Below are positions 29,729 through 41,160 of a DNA stretch of 64,000 nucleotides, one piece after another. The notes under the pieces were generated by a model. It was not told the origin of the DNA. It made no database searches and saw nothing but the letters and a program-made list of their open reading frames with translations. The stretch is taken from contig NZ_CP107551.1 of the NCBI RefSeq assembly GCF_025837095.1, positions 868,001 through 932,000 on the forward strand, in the 5' to 3' direction. A program made the translations under genes and the position numbers. The DNA comes from Rhodococcus sp. Z13 (GTDB lineage Bacteria; Actinomycetota; Actinomycetes; Mycobacteriales; Mycobacteriaceae). Within the stretch, counting starts at the first letter, position 1; every line of letters starts with the position of its first letter.

Positions 29729-30235
29729 ATGGCCGCATCGGCCCCGAAATCGACCCCGAATCTGTTCCTGGTCTACGTGACCGACGTGGACCGTGCGACC
29801 CGCTTCTACAGCGACCTGTTCGGCATGTCGCCGGAGATGGTGACGCCCCGCTACGTGTCCTTCGAGGTGGCGCCGGGGATGCTGTTCGCCCTGTGGTCGG
29901 GGCGGGCGGAGACGGTGACCCCGGACGCGCCGCGCTTCTCAGAGGTCGGGCTCATGCTCCCCGGCTCGGCCGACGCCGTCGACGCGCTGTTCGAGCAGTG
30001 GGAACACAAGGGCGTGACGGTGGTGGAGAAGCCGCACGACGAGGTCTTCGGGCGGACGTTCGTGGTGGCCGATCCCGACGGCAATCTCATCCGCGTCTCG
30101 CCGCTGGACCGAGGGTGGGATCCGGATGAACTCTCGGTGTTCCCGACTGCGGCCGGCCGCAGTCGGGAACACCCAGAGTTCGAGAGTGTGCCCCCGGCAG
30201 GATTCGAACCTGTCGTGAAAGCCGATCTTCTGTGA
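29729..30235 (+). CDS. VOC/glyoxalase-fold protein with altered C-terminus
   Basis: A VOC (glyoxalase/bleomycin-resistance fold) protein in which the paired beta-alpha-beta units are clear from NLFLVYVTDVDRATRFYSDL to FVVADPDGNLIRVSPLD. ATG 29729 follows a GGAGGAG site. The family fold ends near residue 128. The remaining 40 or so codons run through a large terminator palindrome, the tRNA-Arg 3' end and into the integrated island before stopping at 30235. The island therefore supplies the present stop codon and last residues. Relatives include phenazine-resistance and PhnB-like proteins; the ligand is unknown. Confidence 0.75.
   Translation: MAASAPKSTPNLFLVYVTDVDRATRFYSDLFGMSPEMVTPRYVSFEVAPGMLFALWSGRAETVTPDAPRFSEVGLMLPGSADAVDALFEQWEHKGVTVVEKPHDEVFGRTFVVADPDGNLIRVSPLDRGWDPDELSVFPTAAGRSREHPEFESVPPAGFEPVVKADLL
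30128..30181. terminator. Large palindromic terminator near tRNA attL
   Basis: A loop-free perfect 38-bp palindrome at 30136-30173 is extended by GAACTCT/AGAGTTC arms after a single mismatch, giving a stem of 26 pairs. It lies within the last codons of the VOC gene and next to the tRNA 3' end remnant. Before island insertion it would have ended transcription of tRNA-Arg and/or the VOC gene. Confidence 0.7.
30187..30212. repeat. attL: 26-bp tRNA-Arg 3' end duplication
   Basis: Twenty-six bases including GGCAGGATTCGAACCTG are identical to 41086-41111, the 3' end of tRNA-Arg(CCU). This copy is not part of a complete tRNA. The integrase gene begins 146 bp away, so this is the attachment site next to int. 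The element between the two copies is 10.9 kb. Confidence 0.93.
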
Positions 30236-30328
30236 TCGTTAACCAGCGGATTTATACCAATCTTGCTGGTCGTACGTGAATCTACATGCGGACAGAAGTG
30301 GGCGCAACGTGTCATAGGATTACTTCTG

Positions 30329-30348
30329 TTCTGCACGTATTTTGCACG
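30329..30348. repeat. Putative integrase arm-type sites, left pair
   Basis: TTCTGCACGTATTTTGCACG contains two direct TGCACG repeats and matches 18 of 20 bases of the sequence at 41020-41039 near the other island end. Position just ahead of int fits arm-type integrase binding sites; it may also overlap the int promoter. Confidence 0.6.
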
Positions 30349-30357
30349 AGGGGTGAT

Positions 30358-31512
30358 ATGGCGCGTCGGAAGAAGCGATCGTTCGGGGGTCTCCGCAAGC
30401 TGCCCTCCGGCCGCTGGCAGGCGAAGTACACCGCCCCGGACGGACTGATCTACAAGGCCCCGCGAACGTTTGCCGCCGAGGACGATGCAATTGCCTGGTT
30501 GAACGCAGAACGTCGCCTGATCGACCTCGACGCCTGGACTCCACCCACCGAGCGTGACCGTGCCGACGAGCAGGCCGCACTGAAGCTCACCCTGGGGGAG
30601 TACGCGGACCGCTGGATCACTCACCGCCATTTGAAGGAGTCCACCAGGCACCTGTACCGGCGCATGTTCGAGCAGCACATCGAACCAGAACTCGGAGCGC
30701 TGCCCCTCGACGAGGTGACCTCCGAGCGGATCCTCGTATGGTTCGCTGACCTCCGGGACAAGCCGGGACCGAACAAAGCATCGACGGGTAAGACTCGAAA
30801 CGCCCGCGTCTACGCGCTGCTGCGCACCATCTTCGCTACCGCGGTAGACGACGGACTCATCTCGAGCAATCCGTGCCGCATCCCCCGCGCCGGCAGAACC
30901 GAGCGGGCTCACGAAATCCGCCTGCTGTCGATCTCCGAGCTCGACTCCCTCGCCTTTGCGATGCCCGAGCGTCTACGTCTGCTCGTCAAGCTCGCTGCCT
31001 GGTGCGGTTTGCGCCGCGGTGAGCTGCTCGAGCTGCGCCGCGGTGACGTGGCCGAGGACGGCAGTGTTGTTCGGATCCGCAGAGCTGTCGTGTTCGTCGA
31101 TCGCAAGCCCGTCGTTGGGCCCCCGAAATCGGACGCTGGCGTGCGAGACGTGACAGTGCCACCCCATATCCGTACCGCGGTCGTCGATCATCTCAGCGAA
31201 CACGTTGGTCGAGGGAAGAACGCGCTGCTGTTCACCTCAAAGGACGGGGACCGTCTGGGGGAGTGGACTCTCCGCTATCACTTCGAGCAGGCAACCACGA
31301 GGATCGATCGCTCAGACCTACGTCTACACGATCTGAGGCACCAGGGGGCTGTCCTCGCTGCACAGGCTGGCGCGACGACCAAGGAGCTCATGGCTCGGCT
31401 TGGACACTCAACTCCGAACATGGCGATGCGCTACCAACATGCTGCGGCCGGGCGGGATGCTCAGATCGCGGAAAGGCTTTCGCAGCTAGCGGATGGTCAT
31501 GGTTGGCCGTGA
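30358..31512 (+). CDS. int: Tyrosine site-specific integrase
   Basis: A 384-residue phage-type integrase. An N-terminal arm-binding region (about 1-65, GLRKLPSGRWQAKYTAPDG) precedes a SAM-like core-binding domain (about 75-170) and the catalytic domain with Arg219 (CGLRRGE), His324 and Arg327 (HDLRH), His350 (LGHS) and nucleophile Tyr359 (MRYQH). All catalytic residues are present. ATG 30358 follows GAGGGGTG. It lies 146 bp from attL and would integrate and, with the Xis-like protein, excise the element at tRNA-Arg. Confidence 0.96.
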   Translation: MARRKKRSFGGLRKLPSGRWQAKYTAPDGLIYKAPRTFAAEDDAIAWLNAERRLIDLDAWTPPTERDRADEQAALKLTLGEYADRWITHRHLKESTRHLYRRMFEQHIEPELGALPLDEVTSERILVWFADLRDKPGPNKASTGKTRNARVYALLRTIFATAVDDGLISSNPCRIPRAGRTERAHEIRLLSISELDSLAFAMPERLRLLVKLAAWCGLRRGELLELRRGDVAEDGSVVRIRRAVVFVDRKPVVGPPKSDAGVRDVTVPPHIRTAVVDHLSEHVGRGKNALLFTSKDGDRLGEWTLRYHFEQATTRIDRSDLRLHDLRHQGAVLAAQAGATTKELMARLGHSTPNMAMRYQHAAAGRDAQIAERLSQLADGHGWP

Positions 31513-31776
31513 GCGGACGGCCGGAACAAGGTGTGTTCTAATGGAAATAACCACCACTTGAGTGGCCAGAAGTCGACAACCAAACACCGACAGCTAGTCG
31601 AGGATGAATGACCAGCCGGAAATGCGGCTGAGCCGAAAGGGCGCGTCAGGAGGTCTCGATTAACGGCGAGTCCAGTTCGCTCTGATGAGCGAGAGCCCCG
31701 CAACGGGAGCCGAGCACAGATAGACCAAAGAGGTCTATCTGTAGCTCGGTGTTCTTCTTTCAGGAGGAGAATTCCC
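31513..31776 (+). ncRNA. Structured int-xis leader (candidate regulatory RNA)
   Basis: These 264 bases lie between int and the AlpA-like gene and have no plausible ORF. They contain successive short hairpins: CAGCCG/CGGCTG around 31611-31628, TCGCTC-TGAT-GAGCGA near 31678-31693 and CCCG-CAA-CGGG near 31697-31706. The very strong terminator at 31710-31749 follows, and the ribosome site AGGAGGAG comes only after that terminator. This order suggests attenuation of the xis operon or a small RNA, comparable in position to the reported int-alpA motif, but I cannot confirm family membership. Confidence 0.45.
31710..31760 (+). terminator. Strong intrinsic terminator upstream of xis-like gene
   Basis: The stem pairs ACAGATAGACC with GGTCTATCTGT around an AAAGA loop (31716-31742). 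CCGAGC/GCTCGG extends it to 17 pairs with one bulge, and the T-rich tail TGTTCTTCTTT follows. It would end int transcription or attenuate the downstream operon. Confidence 0.8.
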
Positions 31777-31986
31777 GTGTCAGGCAAGAGTGGATCCCGC
31801 CGCCTCGTCTCGGTTCCTCAGGCTGCGGAGGAATTCGGAGTTTCTAGCAGGACGGTCCGCCGCTACATCTCAGCTGGGCGAATCACCGGGTATCGATTCG
31901 GTCCGCGGATGATCCGCGTCGATCTCAATGAGATCGAGGCGATGATGCGGCCGATGGCTACTGCTCAGGCTGGGGGTGTGAAATGA
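31777..31986 (+). CDS. AlpA/excisionase-like HTH protein
   Basis: A 69-residue DNA-binding protein with a MerR/excisionase-type winged helix (SVPQAAEEFGVSSRTVRRYISAG then ITGYRFGPRMIRVDLNEIE). It would bend att DNA and bias Int toward excision or act as an AlpA-type activator. GTG 31777 has an excellent AGGAGGAG site. Its stop overlaps the next ATG. It is the first gene after the leader terminator and probably heads the rightward island operon. Confidence 0.85.
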   Translation: MSGKSGSRRLVSVPQAAEEFGVSSRTVRRYISAGRITGYRFGPRMIRVDLNEIEAMMRPMATAQAGGVK

Positions 31987-32171
31987 CGCACTCTCATTCG
32001 GCAGGTGGTTTTCGCGAGCCTGATCCCCGTCAGGCCGAGTTCAACCGGTATCTCTCATCCGATCCTGGGGTCGCGCTCCAGGTGCAGAGAGACCTCTATG
32101 CGGATCTACTCATCCGACTCGACGCTGACCTCGCGGTCATGGCCGCCGAACTCGGAGGCGGTGCCGAGTGA
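31983..32171 (+). CDS. Small island protein, unknown
   Basis: A 62-residue acidic protein starting at an ATGA overlap with the xis-like gene and ending in a GTGA overlap with the next gene. No motif is recognised; the second half is helical (VQRDLYADLLIRLDADLAVMA). The tight overlaps on both sides argue that it is translated. Confidence 0.6.
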   Translation: MTHSHSAGGFREPDPRQAEFNRYLSSDPGVALQVQRDLYADLLIRLDADLAVMAAELGGGAE

Positions 32172-32524
32172 GCGCATACGAAAGCCGCCCCGCGGGCCTC
32201 GGGGCGGCTCCCGAACCTGCTGACTACAGCTCGCTCACTGACTCCCACGGTAACAGCGTCAAAGCCCAACTCGGACGACGTCATTCAGCAGCCCGGCGAC
32301 TTCCGCCCCTCGAGTGTGGCTGTGTGGATCCGTGGCGGCACCGCTGTAGCGAACCGGGCATTACCGAGCGTCGAGCCGACGCTCTCGCCGCGGCCGCAGC
32401 ACATCTCCTCAGTGCTGGTCTGACACCGATCATGCCGGTGGACGCGCTGCGAGCCCTGTGGCGGCGGGGCGGCGCTGATCGCCGCCGCGCAGCCACCATC
32501 GCTGGGAGGGTGATGCAGCAGTGA
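32168..32524 (+). CDS. Island protein with Cys/His cluster, unknown
   Basis: A 118-residue protein with a central CGCVDPWRHRC segment that could bind zinc, followed by a helical, Arg/Ala-rich C-terminal part. It starts at a GTGA overlap and ends overlapping the ATPase start (GTGA/ATG junction at 32521). I do not recognise a family. Its place directly before the replication-type ATPase suggests a replication accessory role, which is inference. Confidence 0.6.
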   Translation: MSAYESRPAGLGAAPEPADYSSLTDSHGNSVKAQLGRRHSAARRLPPLECGCVDPWRHRCSEPGITERRADALAAAAAHLLSAGLTPIMPVDALRALWRRGGADRRRAATIAGRVMQQ

Positions 32525-33609
32525 TCGGCCGCGACTATCCCGAGGCCGCGTGGCTCGACCAGGACGGCCTCCTCCCGAACCGTCTTCCCTCGGAGGGTGT
32601 CCCGTACGTCGATGTTCCGCCGCCGGAGTCCGTCGAGGACAGTGGTGGTCCGGCGCGCCGGCCTCTTCGTGACCAGGTGCTCCGCCGGTCCGCTCTCGCA
32701 GCGATGCCCGACCCCGAACCGCTGATCGACGGTGTGCTCGACCGTGGCACCACCGCGCTGCTGTACGGGAAGTGGGGTTCCGGAAAGTCGTTCATCGCGC
32801 TGGACTGGGCCGCGTCCGTCGCCTCCGGCCGTCGCTGGCAGGGACTCGCGACAACCCGCCAACGGGTGCTGTACGTCGCCGCCGAAGGCGCCTTCGGGCT
32901 CAAAGGCCGCGTCCTGGCGTGGGAACGCGGATGGAAGGTCGATCTCGAGGACGGAGACCTCGACGTTCTCCCGGTCCCGGTGAACCTCACCCGGTGGCCG
33001 GCGGTGCACGAACTCGCCGGACTGATCCGTGAACACCAGTACGGCATGGTCGTGATCGACACGCTCGCCCGGTGCATGGTCGGCGCCGACGAGAACTCCG
33101 CGAAGGACGTCGGGATCGCCGTCGACAACCTGAACACGCTTCGTCAGGCGACGCCGGACGGTCGCGGAGTGATCCTCGCGGTCCACCACGCCGGAAAAGA
33201 CGGCCGGACCGCCCGCGGATCCTCCGCGCTCGAGGCCGGCGTCGACACGGTCTATCAGACCGTGGTGGACGGCGCCACGATCGACCTCACGCGGGAAAAA
33301 CGCAAGGACGGCCCCGTGGAGGACCGTCACCGCCTCCGCCTCTCTGCGGTGGACGACACCGGATCGGCGATCGTCGTTGTCCACCGCGGGGTGGACAACA
33401 GCGATCGCGCGGACCGGATCTTGTCCATCATGTCCACCCACTTCCGGACAACAGGGGCATCCCGCACCGAACTCCAGAAGGTCGCCGAGGAAGCCGGAAT
33501 CTCCTACGGTTCGTTCACTCGCGGCCTCAATGACCTGCTCGAATCCGGCGAACTCGTCGACGAGGGCACCAGGTCACGCCGGTTCTACCGACTCCGGAGT
33601 CAGCGGTGA
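32521..33609 (+). CDS. RepA-like AAA ATPase (helicase-type)
   Basis: A 362-residue RecA-fold ATPase of the RepA/AAA_25 group found in plasmids and phage-derived islands. It has Walker A GKWGSGKS (83-90), Walker B YGMVVIDT near residue 180 and the downstream HHAGKDG motif. A C-terminal winged-helix-like region (about 300-355) could bind DNA. It probably serves as the replicative helicase or initiator of the element. DnaA-box-like repeats lie inside its 3' half and just downstream. GTG 32521 overlaps the upstream stop. Confidence 0.82.
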   Translation: MIGRDYPEAAWLDQDGLLPNRLPSEGVPYVDVPPPESVEDSGGPARRPLRDQVLRRSALAAMPDPEPLIDGVLDRGTTALLYGKWGSGKSFIALDWAASVASGRRWQGLATTRQRVLYVAAEGAFGLKGRVLAWERGWKVDLEDGDLDVLPVPVNLTRWPAVHELAGLIREHQYGMVVIDTLARCMVGADENSAKDVGIAVDNLNTLRQATPDGRGVILAVHHAGKDGRTARGSSALEAGVDTVYQTVVDGATIDLTREKRKDGPVEDRHRLRLSAVDDTGSAIVVVHRGVDNSDRADRILSIMSTHFRTTGASRTELQKVAEEAGISYGSFTRGLNDLLESGELVDEGTRSRRFYRLRSQR

Positions 33610-33700
33610 AAGTCCACCTTGTCCACCGCTTGTCCACGTCCGCCTCGTTGTCCAGTCCACCCCCCACCCCTTTAGGGGTGGACGGGGTGGATCTGGACAA
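33377..33700. other. DnaA-box-like 9-mer cluster (candidate replication origin)
   Basis: Exact or near copies of the actinobacterial DnaA box TTGTCCACA are packed here. TTGTCCACC is at 33377 and 33619, and inverted at 33390 with a four-base spacer. TTGTCCACG is at 33630, TTGTCCATC at 33421, ATGTCCACC at 33430, AAGTCCACC at 33610, TTGTCCAGT at 33648, and an inverted TTGTCCAG at 33693. They straddle the 3' end of the RepA-like gene. They may equally be iterons for that protein. A CCACCCC/GGGGTGG hairpin at 33664-33681 lies within the cluster. Confidence 0.6.
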
Positions 33701-33734
33701 CGAACAACGTCACTTCTTCCGCGGAAGGGAAACG

Positions 33735-33875
33735 ATGCGTCGACGCCGCGAATGCACGTGCGCTGGGACCGCGCCGGGCTGGCCCCAGCACGAGGCCTAC
33801 TGCGCCACCGTCTCCATCACGGACTCCGATGCCGAGTGGTGGGACAACGAGGAGGCCCCGGAATGGGTGCTGTGA
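33735..33875 (+). CDS. Small Cys-containing island protein
   Basis: A 46-residue protein beginning MRRRRECTCAG with a CxC pair, another Cys at AYC, and an acidic tail. ATG 33735 is preceded by GGAAGGG. A longer reading from GTG 33606 would overlap the ATPase stop as elsewhere in this operon, but its first 43 codons consist of the DnaA-box-like repeats. Function unknown. Confidence 0.5.
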   Translation: MRRRRECTCAGTAPGWPQHEAYCATVSITDSDAEWWDNEEAPEWVL

Positions 33876-34195
33876 CCGCCCAGCGCGGCCCGCGGGGTCC
33901 GCGTCCCCGTGTCCCGGCGGTCTTCGCCGAGATGATCGACGGTCGCCTCGCCGGGGCGGCCTGCGTCGGCCGACACGAGTTGTTCGACGCCGAACTCGAC
34001 GGCGTCCACGAAACCCCCGCAGAACGCACGGCTCGGCACGCCGCGGCCGTGGCGATCTGCACGAGCTGTCCCGTGCTCACCGCCTGCCGCGTCGTCGCGG
34101 ACGAGGCCGGCCGCCACGCCCACGGGGTGTGGGCCGCAACCGTACGCAACACTTCCCGGCCCACAGGCCGGAGCCCGAAGGAGCTCTCCGCGTGA
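33863..34195 (+). CDS. WhiB-like iron-sulfur regulator
   Basis: A 110-residue protein with the four-cysteine WhiB signature: Cys34 (AACVG), Cys66 and Cys69 (CTSC) and Cys75, followed by GVWAA in place of the usual GVWGG turn and a basic tail. Such proteins bind a 4Fe-4S cluster and act with sigma factors. Phage-borne WhiB proteins are known to interfere with host WhiB proteins and superinfection. ATG 33863 has GGAGG upstream; GTG 33872 is an alternative. The stop overlaps the next gene. Confidence 0.85.
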   Translation: MGAVTAQRGPRGPRPRVPAVFAEMIDGRLAGAACVGRHELFDAELDGVHETPAERTARHAAAVAICTSCPVLTACRVVADEAGRHAHGVWAATVRNTSRPTGRSPKELSA

Positions 34196-34350
34196 AAACC
34201 ACCATCGACCTCGCCGCGCTCCCGACGTCGCTGCTGCGCCGCAACAACGTCCACCAGCTCGTCGAACGGCTCTCCCGAACCGGCGGATGCCTGCTGCTGG
34301 CCGACCTCGAGGCCGAACGCGCCCGCCGCGGCCTCCGGAGGCGCCCGTGA
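34192..34350 (+). CDS. Small island protein, unknown
   Basis: A 52-residue basic protein starting at a GTGA overlap with the WhiB-like gene and ending at a GTGA overlap with the next. The predicted content is mainly helical, with an Arg-rich C-terminus. No family recognised. Confidence 0.5.
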   Translation: MKTTIDLAALPTSLLRRNNVHQLVERLSRTGGCLLLADLEAERARRGLRRRP

Positions 34351-34742
34351 ACACCCGGACCGCGGGACAGGTCCCCGCACAGCAGGTTCCGCCGGTTCAG
34401 CACCTCGAGGACGCTCTCGTGCTGACCGGCGACGCGATCGGCACCGTCCGGTGGGCGCTGAGCGTGGCGATCGGCGCCCGCCGACGCCGCGGCATGCCCA
34501 TACCGCGGGAGGTCGGCCTTCTCGCAGGACTGCTGTCCGCGCCCGGACAGCACCCGACGACGACACCAGGATTCGGTGAACCTCGAGGTGACGTCATCGG
34601 CACCGGCGAACTCGCCCGACTGCTCGGGTGCAGCCGCCGGAACGCGCAACGGATCGCCACCGAACTCGGGCGACTCGAAGCCGGCCGATGGGTCATCGAC
34701 CGCACCGTCGCCGAGCAGTACGCGAGGAGCCGACACCAGTGA
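34347..34742 (+). CDS. HTH-containing island protein
   Basis: A 131-residue protein whose C-terminal third carries a helix-turn-helix (GTGELARLLGCSRRNAQRIA) like those that bind DNA in phage regulators. The N-terminal part is helical. Start and stop overlap neighbouring genes (GTGA at both). Probably a transcriptional or replication regulator; target unknown. Confidence 0.6.
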   Translation: MNTRTAGQVPAQQVPPVQHLEDALVLTGDAIGTVRWALSVAIGARRRRGMPIPREVGLLAGLLSAPGQHPTTTPGFGEPRGDVIGTGELARLLGCSRRNAQRIATELGRLEAGRWVIDRTVAEQYARSRHQ

Positions 34743-34867
34743 ACCCCCCGACTCTCGAACAGGTCGCCGAGTGGCTGGCTCTGGCCACCGACGACGAGAT
34801 CCACCACGTGCTCGAACTGGCCTGGCCCGATCAACCCGACCACGACACGAAGGACACCCACGCATGA
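34739..34867 (+). CDS. Very small acidic island protein
   Basis: A 42-residue acidic protein (NPPTLEQVAEWLALATDDEI at its N-terminus). It starts with a GTGA overlap and ends with an ATGA overlap. Its acceptance rests on the continuous overlap chain of the operon; function unknown. Confidence 0.5.
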   Translation: MNPPTLEQVAEWLALATDDEIHHVLELAWPDQPDHDTKDTHA

Positions 34868-35487
34868 GATACACCGGCCACAACGGCAACGACCGCTACA
34901 ACCCCGCCGGACGGCCTCCACTCGAGGCCCTGCCCGCCGACCTCGCCAAGCTCCTCGCCGAATACGACGCCGCCCAGGCACGGGTCCGCGACGCCGAACG
35001 CGAACGCGACCGCCTCGCCCAGCCCGAGCGCGACGACGAGGCACGCCAGGCCGACGCCGCAGCCGCGGCGGCCGCGGCACGAGCCGGGAAGAAGATCCCA
35101 CCCGCCACCGCCGCCGCGAAGCTCGCCGCCGACCGCGACGAGTCCGTCCGCGCCGCCGACGCCCACCGCGCCGCCGTGAAAGCGATCCGCGACGACCTCG
35201 ACGAAGCCCGCGACGCCGCGCTGCTGTCCATCACCGGCCCCAACGACAAGGATCGGGACCGCGTCGCCAAGGCCGCCGCCGACTTCGTTGCGGTGCTCGA
35301 ACAGGCGATCGCCGACCGTGCTGTCTACGACTGGCTCCGCGGCCGCACGTACTTCGCCAACGCTCAGACCTGGGCGGTCGACGTCGTTCCCGCGCTCCGC
35401 CACCATGCGATGGGCCGGGACAACTCGACGCTCGTCCACGCTCGCGCGGTCGTCACCAACCTCGTCGACGCACTCATGGAGGACTGA
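34864..35487 (+). CDS. Coiled-coil island protein
   Basis: A 207-residue protein starting at an ATGA overlap. Residues about 25-130 form an Ala/Arg/Asp/Glu-rich heptad region likely to be a long coiled coil, followed by a more globular C-terminus (VYDWLRGRTYFANAQTWAVD). It could be structural or scaffolding, but no phage structural family is recognised and no capsid genes accompany it. Confidence 0.65.
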   Translation: MRYTGHNGNDRYNPAGRPPLEALPADLAKLLAEYDAAQARVRDAERERDRLAQPERDDEARQADAAAAAAAARAGKKIPPATAAAKLAADRDESVRAADAHRAAVKAIRDDLDEARDAALLSITGPNDKDRDRVAKAAADFVAVLEQAIADRAVYDWLRGRTYFANAQTWAVDVVPALRHHAMGRDNSTLVHARAVVTNLVDALMED

Positions 35488-35490
35488 CCC

Positions 35491-35640
35491 ATGCCGATCG
35501 ATCACCACTTCGACTACACCAGCGGCGAGCCCTGGGAGATCCGCCGCCGCGCCGTGGAGAACCTACGCCACCAGCGCCGCGAGTACGCCCTCCGGCGCGC
35601 CGCCGAGGAAGCGGAGAAACAGAGCCAGCAACGCCGCTGA
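35491..35640 (+). CDS. Small basic island protein
   Basis: A 49-residue protein beginning MPIDHHFDYTSGEPWEIRRR and continuing as a charged helix to the stop at 35638-35640. A GGAGG lies 12 bases upstream, inside the end of the coiled-coil gene. Function unknown. Confidence 0.55.
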   Translation: MPIDHHFDYTSGEPWEIRRRAVENLRHQRREYALRRAAEEAEKQSQQRR

Positions 35641-35641
35641 C

Positions 35642-35845
35642 ATGTGGTTGTACATGGTCGGCAGCCCCTACCCGCAGCGGCTCGGGATTGTCGGTACCGA
35701 CGAACATCCGATCACCGTGGTCCACCTGCCCCGCAAGGACCAGTTCCACCTGCGGTGTCGATGCGGGTGGACCGCGATCGGGGTCACCCTCAACCACGCC
35801 CGGATGCTCACCGGCCGGCACGCGCCGGACCAGCAGCCCGACTGA
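35642..35845 (+). CDS. Small island protein with CxC motif
   Basis: A 67-residue protein beginning one base after the previous stop (TGACATG). It contains FHLRCRCGWTAIG, a possible zinc-binding turn, and ends in a basic/proline tail. Two strong hairpins follow it. Function unknown. Confidence 0.55.
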   Translation: MWLYMVGSPYPQRLGIVGTDEHPITVVHLPRKDQFHLRCRCGWTAIGVTLNHARMLTGRHAPDQQPD

Positions 35846-35850
35846 CGACA

Positions 35851-35909
35851 GGCCGGTGGTCTCACCAGAGGCCACCGGCCCCAAGGGGTGGGGGAGGGAC
35901 CCCCACCCC
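35851..35909 (+). terminator. Two consecutive terminator-like hairpins
   Basis: GGCCGGTGG/CCACCGGCC (35851-35880) is followed at once by GGGGTGGGGG/CCCCCACCCC with a five-base loop (35885-35909). They separate the small-gene operon from the small-terminase-like gene. Confidence 0.65.
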
Positions 35910-35984
35910 CACCGGACGGCCCACCAGCGGCATAGGGCCGATCCCTCCCCGTCTCCCCAAACTATCGACCCTTCGGAGGACCGA

Positions 35985-36081
35985 ATGACCCCCAAACCAC
36001 CCCCAGGGACGCGTACCGCTGGGCGCCGGTTGTGGTCGGCGATCGTCGCCGAGTACGAACTCACCGAACACGAGCTTCAGA
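35985..36081 (+). pseudogene. P27-like terminase small subunit, 5' fragment
   Basis: ATG 35985 with GGAGGA upstream opens a frame reading LWSAIVAEYELTEHELQ before an IS1634-family element interrupts it at 36082. Removing the element and one 50-bp copy gives a 109-residue protein resembling P27-type phage small terminase subunits. Confidence 0.65.
36032..36081. repeat. 50-bp target duplication of IS1634-type element, left copy
   Basis: These 50 bases are identical to 37843-37892 and directly abut the element's terminal CCCGAGTTGGCTCAT. Long, variable-length duplications are a known trait of IS1634/IS1549-type elements. Confidence 0.92.
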
Positions 36082-37842
36082 CCCGAGTTGGCTCATGTTT
36101 TCGGGATGATCGACAGCTCACGTCTGTGACCTGCTGGTTTTCGTCGGGATCGGCCTGATTTCACGCACTAACGGCGCTGGTTCTAGGCTCGGCAAGTGGT
36201 GTTTGTCAGGAAGGTGCGCACCAAGTCCGGGGCCACGGCCGTGCAGATCGCCCGCTATGTGGGCGGTCGGCAGGAGATCGTCAAGCACATCGGTTCCGCG
36301 CATACCGACGTCGAACTCGGCATGCTGCTCGAGCGCGCCCGGGCCTGGCTCGAACCCGACCAGCAAGTCCTCGACCTCGGCGTCACCCGGCAGGTCCCGG
36401 TCGAAAAGCCCCTGGCCGGCGGGCAGAGCACCCTGTTCGAGCCCACACCCGGACCCGTGCAGGTGGATACGCCGGGACGGACGGAATCGACCGGGTCGGT
36501 GCTGCTGCGCCAGGTCTTGGTCGACGTCTACGACCAGCTTGGGTTCGGCATCCTCGGCGACACGGTGTTCCGGGACCTGGTGATCGCCCGGATCGTCGAA
36601 CCCGGCTCGAAACTCGACGCCGGTCGGGTCCTACAGGACCTCGGGACGGATCCACCGAGCTACGCGACGATCAAACGCCACCTGAAGCAGATCGTCGACC
36701 GTGAGTATCGAGGCAAGATCGCCGAGCAATGCTTCGCCCATGCCGCCGAATCCGGCGGTCTGAGCCTGTTGTTGTACGACGTGACGACCTTGTACTTCGA
36801 GGCCGAAAAGGAAGATGACCTGCGCAAAGTCGGGTACTCGAAGGAACGCCGGGTCGACCCGCAGATCGTCGTCGGGCTGCTGGTGGACCGCACCGGTTTC
36901 CCGCTCGAGATCGGCTGCTACGAAGGCAACTCCGCCGAAACCCGCACCATCGTCCCGATCGTGCGGCAGTTCCAGGCCCGCCATGACCTCGACGGGGTCG
37001 AGATGGTCGTCGCCGCGGACGCCGGAATGCTGTCCGCGTCCAATCTCGCAGCGCTGGACGAGGCGGGGCTGAAGTTCATCGTCGGCTCCCGCGCCACGAA
37101 AGCGCCTGGTGATCTCGCCTCCCACTTTCATTGGAACGGCAATGTTTTCACCGATGGGCAGATCATCGACACGATCACGCCACGGCACGGCCGCTCCGTG
37201 GTCAACAACCGCCGGCGACGAGCCGAGCCCGTCTGGAACGAGACGGACCATCCGAATGCGTGGCGGGCGATCTGGCAGTACTCCCGCAGCCGCGCCGCCC
37301 GGGACGAGAAAACACTCAACGCACAAGAAGCCCGCGCCCGGGCCGTGGTCGACGGGGACACCGCACCGAAGTCGACGCGATTCGTGAAGACGACTGCGAA
37401 AGGCCGGCGGCTGGACACTGCCTCGCTCGAACGCGCCAGGATGCTCGTCGGCCTGAAAGGCTATGTCACCAACCTTCCTGTCTCCCTGATGGATCCGAGC
37501 GAAATCATCGGTAAATATCACGAGTTGTGGCATGTCGAGCAGTCGTTCCGGATGTCGAAGACCGATCTGCGGGCCCGGCCGATCTTCCACCGCACCCGCG
37601 ATGCGATCGAGGCGCACCTGACGGTGGTGTTCGCGGCATTGGCGGTCTCCCGGGTGGTGCAGGAACGCAGCGATCTCGCGATCGGCAAGGTCGTCAAGCT
37701 GTTGCGGCCGCTGCGGTCGGCGACCATCGCGATCAACGGCACCCGACACACGTTCCCGCCGCAGGTCGAGGCCGATATGCAGGTGCTGCTCGATCGGATT
37801 TCAGGTACCGAAATCACGCACTAACGAAATGAGCCAACTCGG
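36082..37842 (+). mobile_element. IS1634-family insertion sequence, 1761 bp
   Basis: The element has 15-bp perfect terminal inverted repeats (CCCGAGTTGGCTCAT) and a single 542-codon transposase of the IS4 superfamily/IS1634 group. It is inserted in the small-terminase-like gene of the island, with 50-bp direct repeats of target DNA. Everything looks intact, so it may be active and its insertion recent. Confidence 0.92.
36196..37824 (+). CDS. IS1634-family DDE transposase
   Basis: A 542-residue transposase. Catalytic residues are recognisable as the Asp in LLLYDVTTLYFEAE, the Asp in VVAADAGMLSASN and the Glu in the YHELWHVEQSFRMSKTDL segment, which corresponds to the Y-R-E box of IS4-type enzymes. 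The N-terminal VRKVRTKSGATAVQIARYVG is typical of the IS1634 group. GTG 36196 is the likely start. The stop at 37822-37824 is only four bases before an ATG supplied by the IS end. Confidence 0.93.
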   Translation: MVFVRKVRTKSGATAVQIARYVGGRQEIVKHIGSAHTDVELGMLLERARAWLEPDQQVLDLGVTRQVPVEKPLAGGQSTLFEPTPGPVQVDTPGRTESTGSVLLRQVLVDVYDQLGFGILGDTVFRDLVIARIVEPGSKLDAGRVLQDLGTDPPSYATIKRHLKQIVDREYRGKIAEQCFAHAAESGGLSLLLYDVTTLYFEAEKEDDLRKVGYSKERRVDPQIVVGLLVDRTGFPLEIGCYEGNSAETRTIVPIVRQFQARHDLDGVEMVVAADAGMLSASNLAALDEAGLKFIVGSRATKAPGDLASHFHWNGNVFTDGQIIDTITPRHGRSVVNNRRRRAEPVWNETDHPNAWRAIWQYSRSRAARDEKTLNAQEARARAVVDGDTAPKSTRFVKTTAKGRRLDTASLERARMLVGLKGYVTNLPVSLMDPSEIIGKYHELWHVEQSFRMSKTDLRARPIFHRTRDAIEAHLTVVFAALAVSRVVQERSDLAIGKVVKLLRPLRSATIAINGTRHTFPPQVEADMQVLLDRISGTEITH

Positions 37843-38125
37843 GTGGTCGGCGATCGTCGCCGAGTACGAACTCACCGAACACGAGCTTCAGATCCTTCGA
37901 GAAGCGGTACGGACGGTGGATCTGCTCGACACGCTGCACAAGGTCGCCGGCGAGGAGGGCCCGCTCGCGGACTCCTCCCAGGGAAGAAGGGTGCATCCGG
38001 CGATCGTGGAGCTCCGCCAGCAGCGGATCACGCTCGCCCGGCTCCTCGCCACCCTGAACATCCCCACCGAGGACACCACGGTGCGGGCCCCGCGGGGCGT
38101 GTACGGGATCCGAGGGACTGCGTGA
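37829..38125 (+). CDS. P27-like terminase small subunit, IS-rebuilt ORF
   Basis: A 98-residue frame begins at an ATG inside the IS terminal repeat (MSQLG), continues through the second 50-bp copy (WSAIVAEYELTEHELQ) and then LREAVRTVDLLDTLHKV to VELRQQRITLARLLATLNIP. The pattern matches P27-family small terminase subunits, which recognise pac sites. Only about 15 N-terminal residues of the original protein are lost, and the transposase stop lies close enough for coupled translation. In phage satellites a TerS redirects helper packaging; whether this one still works is open. Confidence 0.6.
   Translation: MSQLGWSAIVAEYELTEHELQILREAVRTVDLLDTLHKVAGEEGPLADSSQGRRVHPAIVELRQQRITLARLLATLNIPTEDTTVRAPRGVYGIRGTA
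37843..37892. repeat. 50-bp target duplication of IS1634-type element, right copy
   Basis: Identical to 36032-36081; it regenerates codons 16-32 of the interrupted gene. Confidence 0.92.
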
Positions 38126-38400
38126 GACGCCGCACCCACGAGCCTGGCTCGGCGATCCCCGGAAAGCTTCGGGTGTTCACGCCTAGTGATTGGCCCGGAG
38201 ATACGGACCGCGCTCGACTGGATGCCTGGTTCACCGCTCGCTATGCGTACGCCGAGGTGAACAGCTGGCCTGGCGGAGCGCTGACCCTGATTCGGGAGCA
38301 CCATGCAATGCGACGAAAGATATACCTAGCCTCGGGCTTTCGTGCTGATCGAGCGGACACCCGTGTCGAATACGAAGAATGGTGCCCTGAGCTGGGATAA
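38122..38400 (+). CDS. Island protein downstream of TerS-like gene, unknown
   Basis: A 92-residue protein from GTG 38122 (GTGA overlap with the small-terminase-like gene). It reads RLDAWFTARYAYAEVNSWPG in the middle and ends in an acidic EYEEWCPELG. No family recognised. The overlap places it in the same operon. Confidence 0.55.
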   Translation: MRRRTHEPGSAIPGKLRVFTPSDWPGDTDRARLDAWFTARYAYAEVNSWPGGALTLIREHHAMRRKIYLASGFRADRADTRVEYEEWCPELG

Positions 38401-38449
38401 TTCGACTTGCGAAGGTTGAATCAGTCCCAGTTCGAGGAGCACCATTCCG

Positions 38450-38545
38450 GTGAGCAAGTCTACGTCCCCCTACCCACGCGTGTCCGCATCGGCCACCGGA
38501 ACCGGCCTCGTGTCGCATGCCGGAGCCGTCCTGCTGCTGCGCTAA
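38450..38545 (+). pseudogene. IS1380-type transposase N-terminal remnant
   Basis: From GTG 38450 the frame reads STSPYPRVSASATGTGLVSH and then AGAVLLLR before a stop. This resembles the conserved N-terminus of IS1380-family transposases (YPRV, TG-GLVS-AG). Nothing of the remaining 400 or so residues is present. It marks an older, decayed insertion. Confidence 0.5.
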
Positions 38546-38622
38546 ATCGACAGCTCGGACTCGGGTAACCCATCTGTTGCTCATCCCCGGATCTGCCGGA
38601 GACGCCCGGCCCAGTCCGTGAT

Positions 38623-39108
38623 GTGATGCCTTACGTGAATGGTTGGGCAGCTGGGCTCATCGTCGGCGGTGCATTTCTTCAATGCGGCGGATTGGCGGTG
38701 ACTTTTCATCAGGTGCGGGCTGTCATCAGCATTCGGGATGATGTGCGCCGGCAACTCGGCGGCATACTCCGCAGACTACGCAGAACCGAATTTGTGCACA
38801 CCGAACACGTCACGGTCCCGATCTCGTTGGAGTTGGCAGGCGCCGGTACCGTCACCTTCCGCATGCCCGATGAGTCCGAAACCGATCGGATGTCTCGCGA
38901 GCTTGAAGATCAGAAGCGAGCTGTCGCGGAGTTGCGGCGGACAATTGTAGAGCTCGAGCGTCGAACACAGCGGGATCTCGACGGCAGGCTTGCCGCTCTG
39001 GCCGATGAACTCGACCGGAAAGGCACCCGCGATGCTCGACTCACCTGGAAAGGGGCTGCGCTGATCGGCGCCGGCATCGTGGCGCAGACGGTCGGATCAC
39101 TGATGTGA
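38623..39108 (+). CDS. Membrane protein with coiled coil (island cargo)
   Basis: A 161-residue protein (ATG 38626 is an alternative to GTG 38623). It has an N-terminal membrane helix (about 8-27), a long charged coiled-coil region (about 85-135, SRELEDQKRAVAELRRTIVE) and a C-terminal hydrophobic helix (about 144-160). Codon use is less GC-biased than the chromosome. It lies alone at the distal end of the island, where satellites often keep accessory genes; an anti-phage role is conceivable but unproven. Confidence 0.6.
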   Translation: MMPYVNGWAAGLIVGGAFLQCGGLAVTFHQVRAVISIRDDVRRQLGGILRRLRRTEFVHTEHVTVPISLELAGAGTVTFRMPDESETDRMSRELEDQKRAVAELRRTIVELERRTQRDLDGRLAALADELDRKGTRDARLTWKGAALIGAGIVAQTVGSLM

Positions 39109-39172
39109 CCTCACGAGTTCCCCAGCGCGTTCGCGAGGGTTTCGAGAAGATTCGCGAGGCTCTCGCGCCGCG

Positions 39173-39415
39173 CTACGAGATCCGCCTCGGCGAGTGCCCG
39201 CAGTCACCGACCAGTCGCGATGTCTCACAGGAATTGGCGCAGTGGAAGTAAACATCCTGTCGCACAGGACCGCTCACCCCAGACGCCTCTTCATCCCTGA
39301 TCTCGTAGCCCACAGGGCCGTTGCAGTACTTGCAGCGGAGCTTGTCCGTGTTTCCCGTTGCACCCATGTCGTGCAGGGTATCCCGCAGCAACGGCACCAG
39401 CGCGAGCTGGTCCAT
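39173..39415 (-). CDS. Zinc-ribbon-like small protein (tentative)
   Basis: An 80-residue frame with LRCKYCNGPVGYEI and YFHCANSCE, giving CxxC and CxxxC pairs typical of a zinc ribbon. The ribosome site is weak. It lies in a less dense part of the island. The cysteine spacing is the main reason to accept it. Confidence 0.45.
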   Translation of the reverse strand: MDQLALVPLLRDTLHDMGATGNTDKLRCKYCNGPVGYEIRDEEASGVSGPVRQDVYFHCANSCETSRLVGDCGHSPRRIS

Positions 39416-39773
39416 CGGCTCACGCTGGGAGGGAGTGGAGGGGACCGCCTACCGGCGGACTCTCCTCCACCGAGCGGAGCACCCAAGGGTGCCGGTGTCG
39501 TTGACCCCGCCCCGGAAATTTCCCACGGACCCATCCCATGACCGCGTCTGGCCAACACGTGTAGCCACGTCACCGAATGTGAGCGTGGCTGTGCTGAACC
39601 CTCACCTCGTCTGGCCAGACACCGATGTGAGAGCGCCCTCGCCGGTTCGAGGGATCAAGAACACCGGGCACCGCTGGTTTACGTCGGGCGGTGCGAGAGA
39701 GAACGACGTGCAGAGGCCGCGGACCGCGGCGTGCAAAGCACGGGCCGGTACGAGACCGGCCCGGCTCAACACG
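39416..39773. other. Intergenic island stretch, no gene supported
   Basis: About 360 bases without a convincing coding frame. It holds a perfect 12-bp palindrome GTCTGGCCAGAC at 39609-39620 with a partial copy (GTCTGGCCA) near 39546. A 9-bp stem hairpin at 39741-39763 sits just past the stop of the M41-like gene and probably ends that minus-strand operon. Confidence 0.5.
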
Positions 39774-40280
39774 TCACGAGCCCCACAGAAGCGATTCGAC
39801 GACGTCGTGGGTGACAAGCTCCCCATCGAGGAGAAGTCGCGCCACCTCGAGGATCACAGGCCATACCTGCTCGAGTTCGCGATCCCAGATTTCCGATAGG
39901 GCCGTCTTCTGCTCGGCCGGGATGCCCGCCATGTCTTGCAGGGCCAGGTGTTCCTTTTCGGTCTGCTGGACGATGGCGGCGTCAGACGGTTGCGTGAGGG
40001 AGACGTCGAAGACGTAGTCGTCGAAGGTGAGCATGTCTTCGTCTGTGTCGTCGAGGGGGCGATCTCCCCACAGGGCGCGTGCTTCCGCCCAGATTCCGGC
40101 GTAGGCGATGAACCCGAGATCGAGTGGCTTGCTGTTGTGGAGGGTCAGGCCTAGGTGATCGTCTCCGGGTGTGATCGTGACCGACCGGAGGGTCCCTCCG
40201 CCGCGCATGAGCGTTGCGACGGCGTGCCCTGCCTCGTGGATTGCGGTGATTCTCAGTTGCTCATCCATGCGCTGAATCAT
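39774..40280 (-). CDS. HEXXH (M41-like) peptidase-domain protein
   Basis: A 168-residue protein with AIHEAGHAVATLMRGG at residues 13-28, the HEXXH zinc-binding motif of FtsH/M41-type peptidases, followed by a GLTLHNSKP segment and an acidic helical C-terminus. It lacks the AAA and membrane domains of FtsH, so it is a stand-alone domain. ATG 40280 overlaps the stop of the upstream gene. Similar stand-alone domains occur in phage and island genomes; the substrate is unknown. Confidence 0.7.
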   Translation of the reverse strand: MIQRMDEQLRITAIHEAGHAVATLMRGGGTLRSVTITPGDDHLGLTLHNSKPLDLGFIAYAGIWAEARALWGDRPLDDTDEDMLTFDDYVFDVSLTQPSDAAIVQQTEKEHLALQDMAGIPAEQKTALSEIWDRELEQVWPVILEVARLLLDGELVTHDVVESLLWGS

Positions 40281-40933
40281 CGGACGCCGCCGATCGTGTC
40301 CTTCCGACCGGCGGGAGCACTGTGATCGCGATACAGGCGGGAGAGCGCATCGATCAACGCCGGGATCTCCCGAAGATGGAGCGTCGGGAAGTCGTCGCAC
40401 CCGTCGGGTGTGCCGAACGCGAGCTCGTAGTCGGTCCCGTCCTCAGTCGTGATCGCGTCGAGGGTGACACGGAGGCGGGGAGCGACGTCGACGGCGGTCA
40501 CGGTCGTCACCGTGACTTCGTCGCCGAGGGGCTCCTCGCCGCGGTTCTCGAGTTCGGCGAGTTCGGCGCGTTCCGCCAAGATCCCGCGGCGGATCCGCTC
40601 GACGTCGCTCTCGGTCCACAAGGGCACCGTGCGCCACTGCTCACGGCCGCGACCGGACGCGATTGCGGCCCGTTCGAGTTCGTCGATCATCAGGCCGCAG
40701 TGGTCGCGGAACTCCGACTCGGTGATCTGCTCCGGAGCGAGCTGGTCGAGGACGTCGAAGGCGGTGAGACGGCCACGGCCGGGGAGGAACGCCACGGCGG
40801 CCGCTGCTGCGACGTACCAGCCGTGCTCGATAGCGAAGCGAAGGCCGAGCATGGGCAGCCCGTAGGCAAGGGCGAAGCCGAGAAGGGGAACGAGCGCGTA
40901 CGGTGCGCGCTCTACGATGGTCTGACGGTTCAT
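40277..40933 (-). CDS. Membrane-anchored partner of M41-like protein, unknown
   Basis: A 218-residue protein with one or two N-terminal membrane segments (about residues 10-50) and a cytoplasmic region that is helical then beta-rich (VTVTTVTAVDVAPRLRVTLD). ATG 40933 is chosen over 40942 because of its GGAG spacing. The following gene overlaps its stop, so the two proteins likely act together. No family recognised. Confidence 0.6.
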   Translation of the reverse strand: MNRQTIVERAPYALVPLLGFALAYGLPMLGLRFAIEHGWYVAAAAAVAFLPGRGRLTAFDVLDQLAPEQITESEFRDHCGLMIDELERAAIASGRGREQWRTVPLWTESDVERIRRGILAERAELAELENRGEEPLGDEVTVTTVTAVDVAPRLRVTLDAITTEDGTDYELAFGTPDGCDDFPTLHLREIPALIDALSRLYRDHSAPAGRKDTIGGVR

Positions 40934-41019
40934 CGGAAGCATCTCCGTTGGGCCGAGGCCCTGGAATCGGGAGGCAAGCCCGATCCGGGGCCGTTCTGCA
41001 TCGGCTCCACGTCAGACGA

Positions 41020-41039
41020 TTCTGCACGGATTGTGCACG
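41020..41039. repeat. Putative integrase arm-type sites, right pair
   Basis: TTCTGCACGGATTGTGCACG matches 18 of 20 bases of 30329-30348 in the same orientation, with the same two TGCACG units. It lies 47 bp inside the right attachment site. Confidence 0.6.
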
Positions 41040-41047
41040 TGCTCTAC

Positions 41048-41074
41048 GGTCAGAGCCGGAAACCGGCTCTGACC
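41048..41074 (-). terminator. Hairpin downstream of tRNA-Arg
   Basis: A perfect 12-bp inverted repeat (GGTCAGAGCCGG and complement) with an AAA loop lies 14 bp past the tRNA 3' end on the minus strand. It is within the island and probably replaces the tRNA's original terminator, which was left behind at 30128-30181. Confidence 0.6.
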
Positions 41075-41085
41075 AGCGGAGATGT

Positions 41086-41111
41086 TGTGCCCCCGGCAGG
41101 ATTCGAACCTG
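41086..41111. repeat. attR: 26-bp repeat within tRNA-Arg 3' end
   Basis: Identical to 30187-30212. The copy here forms the T arm and acceptor 3' strand of the functional tRNA, so integration left the gene intact. Confidence 0.93.
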
Positions 41112-41160
41112 CGACACCCGCTTTAGGAGAGCGGTGCTCTATCCCCTGAGCTACGAGGGC
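41088..41160 (-). tRNA. tRNA-Arg (anticodon CCU)
   Basis: The 73-nt minus-strand gene folds fully: acceptor GCCCTCG/CGGGGGC with one G-U pair, D stem GCTC/GAGC, anticodon stem CCGCT/AGCGG with loop CTCCTAA (anticodon CCT), T stem GCAGG/CCTGC with TTCGAAT loop, discriminator A. CCA is not encoded. It is the integration target of the island. Confidence 0.97.

Follow-up and report, generated by a model that had tools for sequence, protein, structure and literature searches.

What kind of mobile element occupies the tRNA-Arg(CCU) gene of Rhodococcus sp. Z13? The DNA analysed here (the window, 64,000 nucleotides) comprises bases 868001-932000 of the single-contig genome (NZ_CP107551.1, 4,532,339 bp), and the element in question is a 10.9-kb island with genes for an integrase (int), an excisionase (xis), a replication ATPase (Rep; rep), a WhiB-like regulator (whiB) and a small terminase subunit (TerS; terS). 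The host genus is not Mycobacterium and belongs to the same GTDB family. We consider it probable, at roughly 0.62, that the island represents a phage satellite integrated in the chromosome and resembling the phage-inducible chromosomal islands (PICIs), and that it belongs to a lineage spread in this family, in a branch mostly without found capsids. A satellite is preferred to a plasmid remnant because Rep is linked to phages, the presumed origin has a rep-plus-iterons design, sister islands occupy the same tRNA gene, and terS recurs in a similar gene order. The first-pass annotation had suggested such an actinobacterial satellite lineage; the satellite part stands but the lineage is not new, as its capsid-carrying Mycobacterium relatives fit the 'candidate PICIs' of PMC10654092. 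For convenience, genomes are numbered G### (own genome, G000) and loci or contigs of relatives L###; the family set holds 401 genomes and the genus set 18.

Integration site

The island is delimited by two exact copies of a 26-bp repeat with a start-to-start distance of 10,899 bp (Table 1), and tRNA-Arg(CCU) lies at 41087-41160 on the minus strand. In the congener G015 the site is empty: similarity to the VOC gene of the left flank stops ~83 bp short of tRNA-Arg(CCU), and the tRNA gene there contains 25 of the 26 att bases. The empty site agrees with the boundaries given by the repeats, which had already been marked in the first-pass annotation. Islands are found at tRNA-Arg(CCU) in three of the 18 genus genomes, own included (G000, G001, and G013), the sites of the other genomes apart from G015 having been viewed at most in short loci.

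The integrase was expected to be catalytically complete. In accordance, R, K, HxxR, H, and Y, which make up the catalytic motif of tyrosine integrases, are present in the translation inspected by eye, and both the integrase families and the excisionase model TIGR01764 are matched (Table 1), the latter bearing out an AlpA/Xis-like gene. With the site and the sister islands observed, Int and Xis would insert the island into tRNA-Arg(CCU) and probably excise it again.

Rep and the presumed origin

Searches of phage records give 1320 matches to Rep, all below 60% identity, of which 28 cover at least 80% and 478 are from Mycobacterium. The best phage matches among those listed are Mycobacterium phages at ~45-47%, for example Klein and Optimus. 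Viral contigs contain three close Rep relatives and no close relatives of int, o11, or TerS. The best relatives are chromosomal: Rep is found at E<=1e-30 in 18 of the 401 family genomes, own included, and within the genus in the window genome alone (1 of 18 genomes). It also occurs in 13 genome-contig loci, 11 of them from Mycobacterium or Mycolicibacterium, and the relatives in Mycobacterium loci are 51-62% identical.

An integrated plasmid, or a remnant of a conjugative element of the actinomycete integrative and conjugative element (AICE) type, is a very improbable source of the island. Plasmids, too, can combine rep with iterons, and AICEs typically integrate into tRNA genes via a tyrosine recombinase. 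Rep, however, has only 18 weak matches in plasmid records, all from outside the actinobacteria and all covering less than 80%, and the island has a terminase gene. Eighteen of the island open reading frames (ORFs) were scanned against Pfam and PHROGs. No significant relaxase or Tra gene is among them, including the FtsK-like Tra that is a feature of AICEs, and no significant capsid, tail, or lysis gene either, although a divergent type is possible. The first-pass annotation likewise saw no genes for capsid, tail, or lysis proteins or for a relaxase; its plasmid alternative is disfavoured.

The heptamer TTGTCCA occurs ten times in the window, and seven copies fall within 324 bp (33377-33700). 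Shuffles of the whole window contain 2.8 copies on average, and none of 100 reaches ten. The first set of repeats lies inside the rep 3' end and the second just behind rep, so that the earlier description of a RepA-like ATPase with origin-like repeats holds. Sequence and geometry suggest that Rep would fire an origin composed of these two clusters.

Eight relatives were picked for a comparison of the layout because repeats already showed there. Two iteron sets surround the rep stop in all eight, and an inverted pair 14-16 bp apart is present in the first set in seven (not in L031). L033 has the same layout with a different iteron, TCTCCAC. In an unselected comparison with an 8-mer measure, nine of 16 relatives score above all control windows taken from the same locus, one of 108 controls equals or exceeds the score of L050, and six are not distinct; the Rep match of L010 is partial, which makes the position of the rep stop unreliable there. 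Iterons that vary within a retained layout offer a concrete prediction of replication specificity.

Sister islands

The integrase is found at E<=1e-80 in 70 of the 401 family genomes and in five of the 18 genus genomes, own included. The search of related genomes for the same gene order, as proposed in the first-pass annotation, reveals sister islands in G001 and G013 and, in genomes of other genera (G091, G167, and G025), similar compact orders at tRNA-Arg(CCU). Throughout, 'no capsid' means that none was found, the ORFs having been partly scanned and the capsid family PF05065 missing some capsid families.

In G013, int is 87% identical and lies 8.2 kb from tRNA-Arg(CCU), with the same flanking genes as in the window. 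The island ends share stretches of 78% (30242-30353) and 83% identity, and Rep of G013 matches that of the window at only 31%. Among the genes of the G013 island are one for a major capsid protein (phrog_1650, 1e-42; NF042926, 8e-84) and another for a head scaffolding-type protein.

In G001, one contig carries beside tRNA-Arg(CCU) the genes for o11 (50%), an o12-like ORF (by inspection), and an uninterrupted TerS (phrog_1496, 9.6e-12), followed by a DUF5677 gene. The end of a second contig carries int, xis, primase, helicase, and o9, and its far flank matches the left flank of the window. The flanking genes match those of the window, and the two contigs probably join into one island. No recognised capsid is among the G001 island ORFs seen. 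Structural genes in relatives had been named beforehand as grounds for abandoning a satellite: the G013 island does have a major capsid gene, but no such gene was detected in G001, whose island is the more syntenic. Finally, G277 has xis (74%) and o9-o13 in window order, then an HNH gene, then the contig end.

These relatives bear on whether the island is a decaying ordinary prophage that has retained int, rep, whiB, and terS. Two insertion sequence (IS) insertions would fit such decay, as would the phage-type Rep, WhiB, and TerS and the 45-47% identity of Rep to Klein and Optimus. We regard it as improbable nonetheless: a similar compact order recurs at tRNA-Arg(CCU) in the three genomes of other genera and the o9-o13 block in G277, Klein has no comparable repeat cluster behind its rep, and no partial structural operon is found among the scanned ORFs of the island.

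Within one genus, a single chromosomal slot is occupied by three islands that differ in their replication and particle modules, so that the exchange of modules can be tested directly.

Capsid, terminase, and IS evidence

With coordinates read by eye, PF05065 capsid genes follow rep within ~6 kb in 13 of 30 genomes or records (L009 and L048 are seemingly one element), and they follow int on the same contig within ~9 kb in 17 of 40 genomes (G296, at 9.7 kb, is excluded). In an integrase tree of 40 rows made by a quick method, with 26 of the 40 rows labelled, the window falls in a clade of seven (98*). No capsid is found in the window, G091, G025, G187, and G167; G013 has a capsid, and G226 is cut by the contig end. 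G187 is unlabelled in the tree, and its capsid status is added from separate scans. The capsid state requires a minimum of five changes on the tree with L130 counted as capsid, a number that is partly dependent on the labelling of L130 by sequence reading. In our best reading, particle modules are swappable in this satellite lineage, and the window copy belongs to its capsid-poor branch.

Two relatives outside this clade carry TerS without a detected capsid, namely G036, which also has HNH, and G111, which also has a tape measure; TerS of G036 is weak in PHROGs (E 0.0083) and reaches 2.1e-7 with a local profile. L029 has large terminase (TerL) and capsid genes by scan, and TerL of L129 and L135 is recognised by similarity and inspection only. 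Proteins of 366 aa (L033:12252-13352) and 397 aa (L130:13582-14775) have the look of HK97-fold capsids by reading only; neither has a Pfam or PHROG match at 0.01.

In the window, an IS1634-family element splits terS, and a remnant of an IS1380-family element lies behind the gene, both overlooked in the first-pass annotation. The 50-bp direct repeats on the two sides of the IS1634-family element (36032-36081 and 37843-37892) are unusually long as a target duplication for an IS; long target duplications are known for the IS1634 family. Part of terS is present in both copies of the repeat, and for this reason the ORF at 37829-38125 retains most of the gene. Its identity as a TerS gene is borne out by phrog_1496, but the gene is not intact, and the label 'P27-like' is loose, because the NCBIfam P27 model gives no match at E 0.1. 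No terminase match to the 3' piece is found in Pfam.

TerS would pass island DNA to the large terminase and capsid of a helper phage, as its family and neighbours suggest. The window copy may differ, its terS being broken by the IS while an ORF with most of terS persists; with the interruption and the remnant behind it, packaging of this copy is probably lost or impaired. The earlier idea that TerS diverts helper packaging may accordingly not apply to the window copy. A search for the helper by packaging-site similarity gives no significant match among phages (best E 0.03), and two patterns have no exact match in viral contigs. Upstream of terS, WhiB and the helix-turn-helix (HTH) proteins may couple expression to the helper phage.

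The island might also descend from a capsid-coding satellite whose capsid genes were lost through IS-mediated deletion. The position of the IS1380 remnant (38327-38542) directly behind terS-o15, the PF05065 capsids near rep in the 13 of 30 genomes or records, and the capsid in the G013 island speak for such a loss. We hold it to be unlikely, since in the syntenic G001 island TerS is followed by the DUF5677 gene with no recognised capsid among the ORFs seen, no capsid is detected in the TerS islands of G036 and G111, and the integrase clade of the window is capsid-poor.

Returning to the PICI-like satellite, several points weigh against it. No helper phage is found, and the island is known from sequence alone. 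No PF05065 capsid is present in the whole window genome, which therefore has no resident prophage of that capsid type (other helper types were not sought). The interruption of terS counts here too, and the closest relative of the integrase, G013, carries a capsid. Of the sister islands, that of G001 is split over two contigs and that of G277 is truncated by the contig end. The iterons of the window, taken alone, are unexceptional when scored by 8-mers (their score is equalled or exceeded in 11 of 340 control windows), seven of the 16 relatives fail to exceed all control windows, and the stretch between the iteron sets is not AT-rich (25-50% AT per 20 bases). Finally, o11, o15, and the cargo ORFs have no known function.

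Comparison with known satellites

According to PMC6092414, PICIs have an integrase, a replication module, and a master regulator in conserved order, and no structural or lytic genes; their att site is never used by prophages; their origin is immediately 3' of rep and contains two iteron sets; they measure ~12-15 kb; and they show phage-dependent induction, interference, and packaging in phage particles. An AT-rich stretch between the iteron sets is described there for Escherichia coli PICIs. The island resembles classical PICIs in its integrase, its regulator, and its rep with iterons both at and behind the 3' end: it has int, xis, rep, and whiB in an order common to its relatives (WhiB being a candidate only for the master regulator), one of its two iteron sets is inside the rep 3' end, and structural and lytic genes are absent from the scanned ORFs, a divergent gene being possible. 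It shares TerS with some Staphylococcus aureus pathogenicity islands (SaPIs), whose packaging is treated in PMC10690885. Unlike classical PICIs, it has WhiB and no identified Stl-type repressor, no AT-rich stretch, and no recognised capsid-morphogenesis homologue, and it measures ~11 kb instead of 12-15 kb (10.9 kb between the att copies, of which 1.8 kb is IS). Membership in the PICIs proper is not claimed, because the size and the AT-rich feature differ and induction and packaging are beyond sequence analysis.

The Mycobacterium candidate PICIs, including phiRv1- and phiRv2-like elements, are defined by an integrase and a major capsid gene in PMC10654092. They share with the island an integrase (tyrosine types at tRNA genes) and, in some, a replication helicase, and the Rep relatives in Mycobacterium loci often have a capsid gene nearby, as candidate PICIs do. 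In contrast, no capsid is found in the window island or, as PF05065, anywhere in its genome, and the host is of another genus. A definition by integrase and capsid would therefore miss this island.

The capsid-forming PICIs (cf-PICIs) have their own capsid, protease, portal, connectors, TerL, TerS, and HNH, as defined in PMC10690885. Of this set, only an interrupted TerS was detected in the island studied here. TerL and capsid genes, which occur in some relatives (L029 by scan, L129 and L135 as above), were not detected in it. The Streptomyces satellites MulchRoom and MiniFlayer, also described in PMC10690885, encode capsid and packaging genes without replication genes, so that they and the window island are both actinobacterial satellites with almost reversed gene content. 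Actinobacteria lag in experimental validation, as PMC10023795 notes; PMC11389934 served as an overview.

The island and its sisters suggest a capsid-poor branch, in several genera, with TerS or HNH as the sole recognised packaging gene. Among the literature matches listed, titles and abstract beginnings, mostly from outside subscription journals, give no recognised description of capsid-less TerS islands in the Mycobacterium family.

A conserved distal non-coding element

The stretch 39439-39776 has counterparts of ~80% identity in G001 and G013, where the remaining genes mostly differ. A profile from five islands finds a sixth copy in G007 (1.8e-7 in 1.54 Mb of loci) and no further copies below E 0.1 in the same loci. 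All six copies are distal in the island, with a tRNA gene no nearer than 0.04 kb and no farther than 1.4 kb, and two cargo genes separate the element from the tRNA in the window. The six islands differ in their packaging modules.

A candidate consensus RNA structure on the minus strand of five sequences is reached by none of 500 shuffles in any of the five measures, the structure being derived from the same rows. The held-out sixth row keeps 28 of 55 pairs (51%), versus 25-43% for slid versions. Single-sequence z-scores are inconsistent, and the covariation terms are unfavourable in both RNAalifold runs.

Tentatively, and at somewhat less than even odds, we propose a modular lineage in which one tRNA-targeting int-xis backbone is retained, replication and particle-hijack modules are swapped, and the distal element is a packaging or control site. 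The modules would be TerS alone (window and G001), HNH alone (G091 and G025), HNH with TerS (G036), capsid (G013 and many others), capsid with tape measure (G252 and G145), and tape measure with TerS (G111). If so, capsid-based surveys would miss the capsid-less branch, and carriers of a tape measure would set the tail length of the helper.

Matches to tail tape measure families are observed at L146:15799-18660, L030:13044-15380, L147:1375-4266, L008:5823-9860, and L010:9647-13330, with no other tail genes noticed in the stretches viewed of these five islands or contigs. The top match of the L146 and L147 proteins is a phrog annotated as endolysin. In G111 (L146) the tape measure occurs together with TerS, and no capsid is found. 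Among the literature matches listed, titles and abstract beginnings give no recognised description of such a tape measure without other tail genes.

Gene map and minor observations

Table 1 Features of the island and copies of the conserved element
Feature	Coordinates	Strand	Evidence
attL core, 26-bp repeat	30187..30212		Exact direct-repeat search; empty-site comparison with G015
Tyrosine integrase (int)	30358..31512	+	Pfam PF00589 1.6e-17; phrog_1 7.8e-65
Excisionase / AlpA-like HTH (xis)	31777..31986	+	HTH_17 2.1e-9; TIGR01764 above cut-off
Small ORF o3	31983..32171	+	No Pfam/PHROGs family
ORF o4	32168..32524	+	Kept upstream of rep in relatives, e.g. 50% in L030
Rep, AAA_25 replication ATPase	32521..33609	+	AAA_25 1.4e-36; PHROGs; chromosomal relatives
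Two TTGTCCA iteron clusters, presumed rep-ori	33377..33700	+	-233/-218/-189 and +9/+20/+38/+84 from rep stop
Small ORF o6	33735..33875	+	No Pfam/PHROGs family
WhiB-like regulator	33863..34195	+	PF02467 27.7 bits (cut-off 23.6); also in relatives
Small ORF o8	34192..34350	+	No Pfam/PHROGs family
o9, HTH-like protein, conserved	34347..34742	+	40% in G001, 38% in G277
Small ORF o10	34739..34867	+	35% over 31 aa in G277, E 2e-4
o11, coiled coil by inspection	34864..35487	+	Similarity search of family genomes; alignment A3
Small ORF o12	35491..35640	+	45% in G277
Small ORF o13	35642..35845	+	48% in G277
terS 5' part, ends at IS	35985..36081	+	Start codon by inspection; 50-bp repeat
IS1634-family element inside terS	36082..37842	+	~1761 bp; transposase ORF 36196-37824, NF033559 2.9e-114
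terS 3' part, ORF beginning in IS end	37829..38125	+	phrog_1496 3.3e-12
ORF o15, overlaps terS	38122..38400	+	3' end extends into IS1380 remnant DNA
IS1380-family remnant	38327..38542		216 bp, 93% identical to end of 1.69-kb element
Cargo ORF o16, membrane/coiled coil by inspection	38626..39108	+	No confident Pfam/PHROGs family
Conserved non-coding element core, common to other islands	39471..39701 (element ~39439-39776)		Sequence comparison, profile search
Cargo ORF o17, HExxH	39774..40268	-	Weak M41-like match under cut-off
Cargo ORF o18, membrane protein by inspection	40277..40942	-	No confident Pfam/PHROGs family
attR core	41086..41111		Same 26-bp repeat, forms 3' end of tRNA-Arg(CCU)
Other copies of the conserved element	L113:7592-7925; L112:5015-5259; L127:17823-18040; L150:1947-2165; L115:3603-3839

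The WhiB-like gene of the first-pass annotation exceeds the PF02467 cut-off, and CX2CX5C is seen by eye in its protein. o11 is present in four of the 401 family genomes, own counted, and neither o11 nor o15 has a phage match at E 1. A match of 31.6% to o15 lies directly behind terS in G155 (E 3.9e-6). In a test for cargo, nine proteins give no PADLOC defence match at E 1.

The gap between int and xis (31513-31776) is a non-coding leader with an internal inverted repeat and no Rfam match. Directly outside attL, 30128-30181 is an inverted repeat with two 27-nt arms, 96% complementary and without a spacer; similar sequences occur at two more positions in the genome.

A near-threshold match to the Rfam family Ms_IGR-7 (RF02469) at 38345-38449 was considered as an independent small RNA gene and rejected, as it sits on the end of the IS1380-family remnant. 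The genome has 11 Ms_IGR-7 matches, ten of them with one equal score, and the four inspected (L167-L170) all lie in near-identical 1.69-kb IS1380-family copies. Ms_IGR-7 may be a transposon-linked family.

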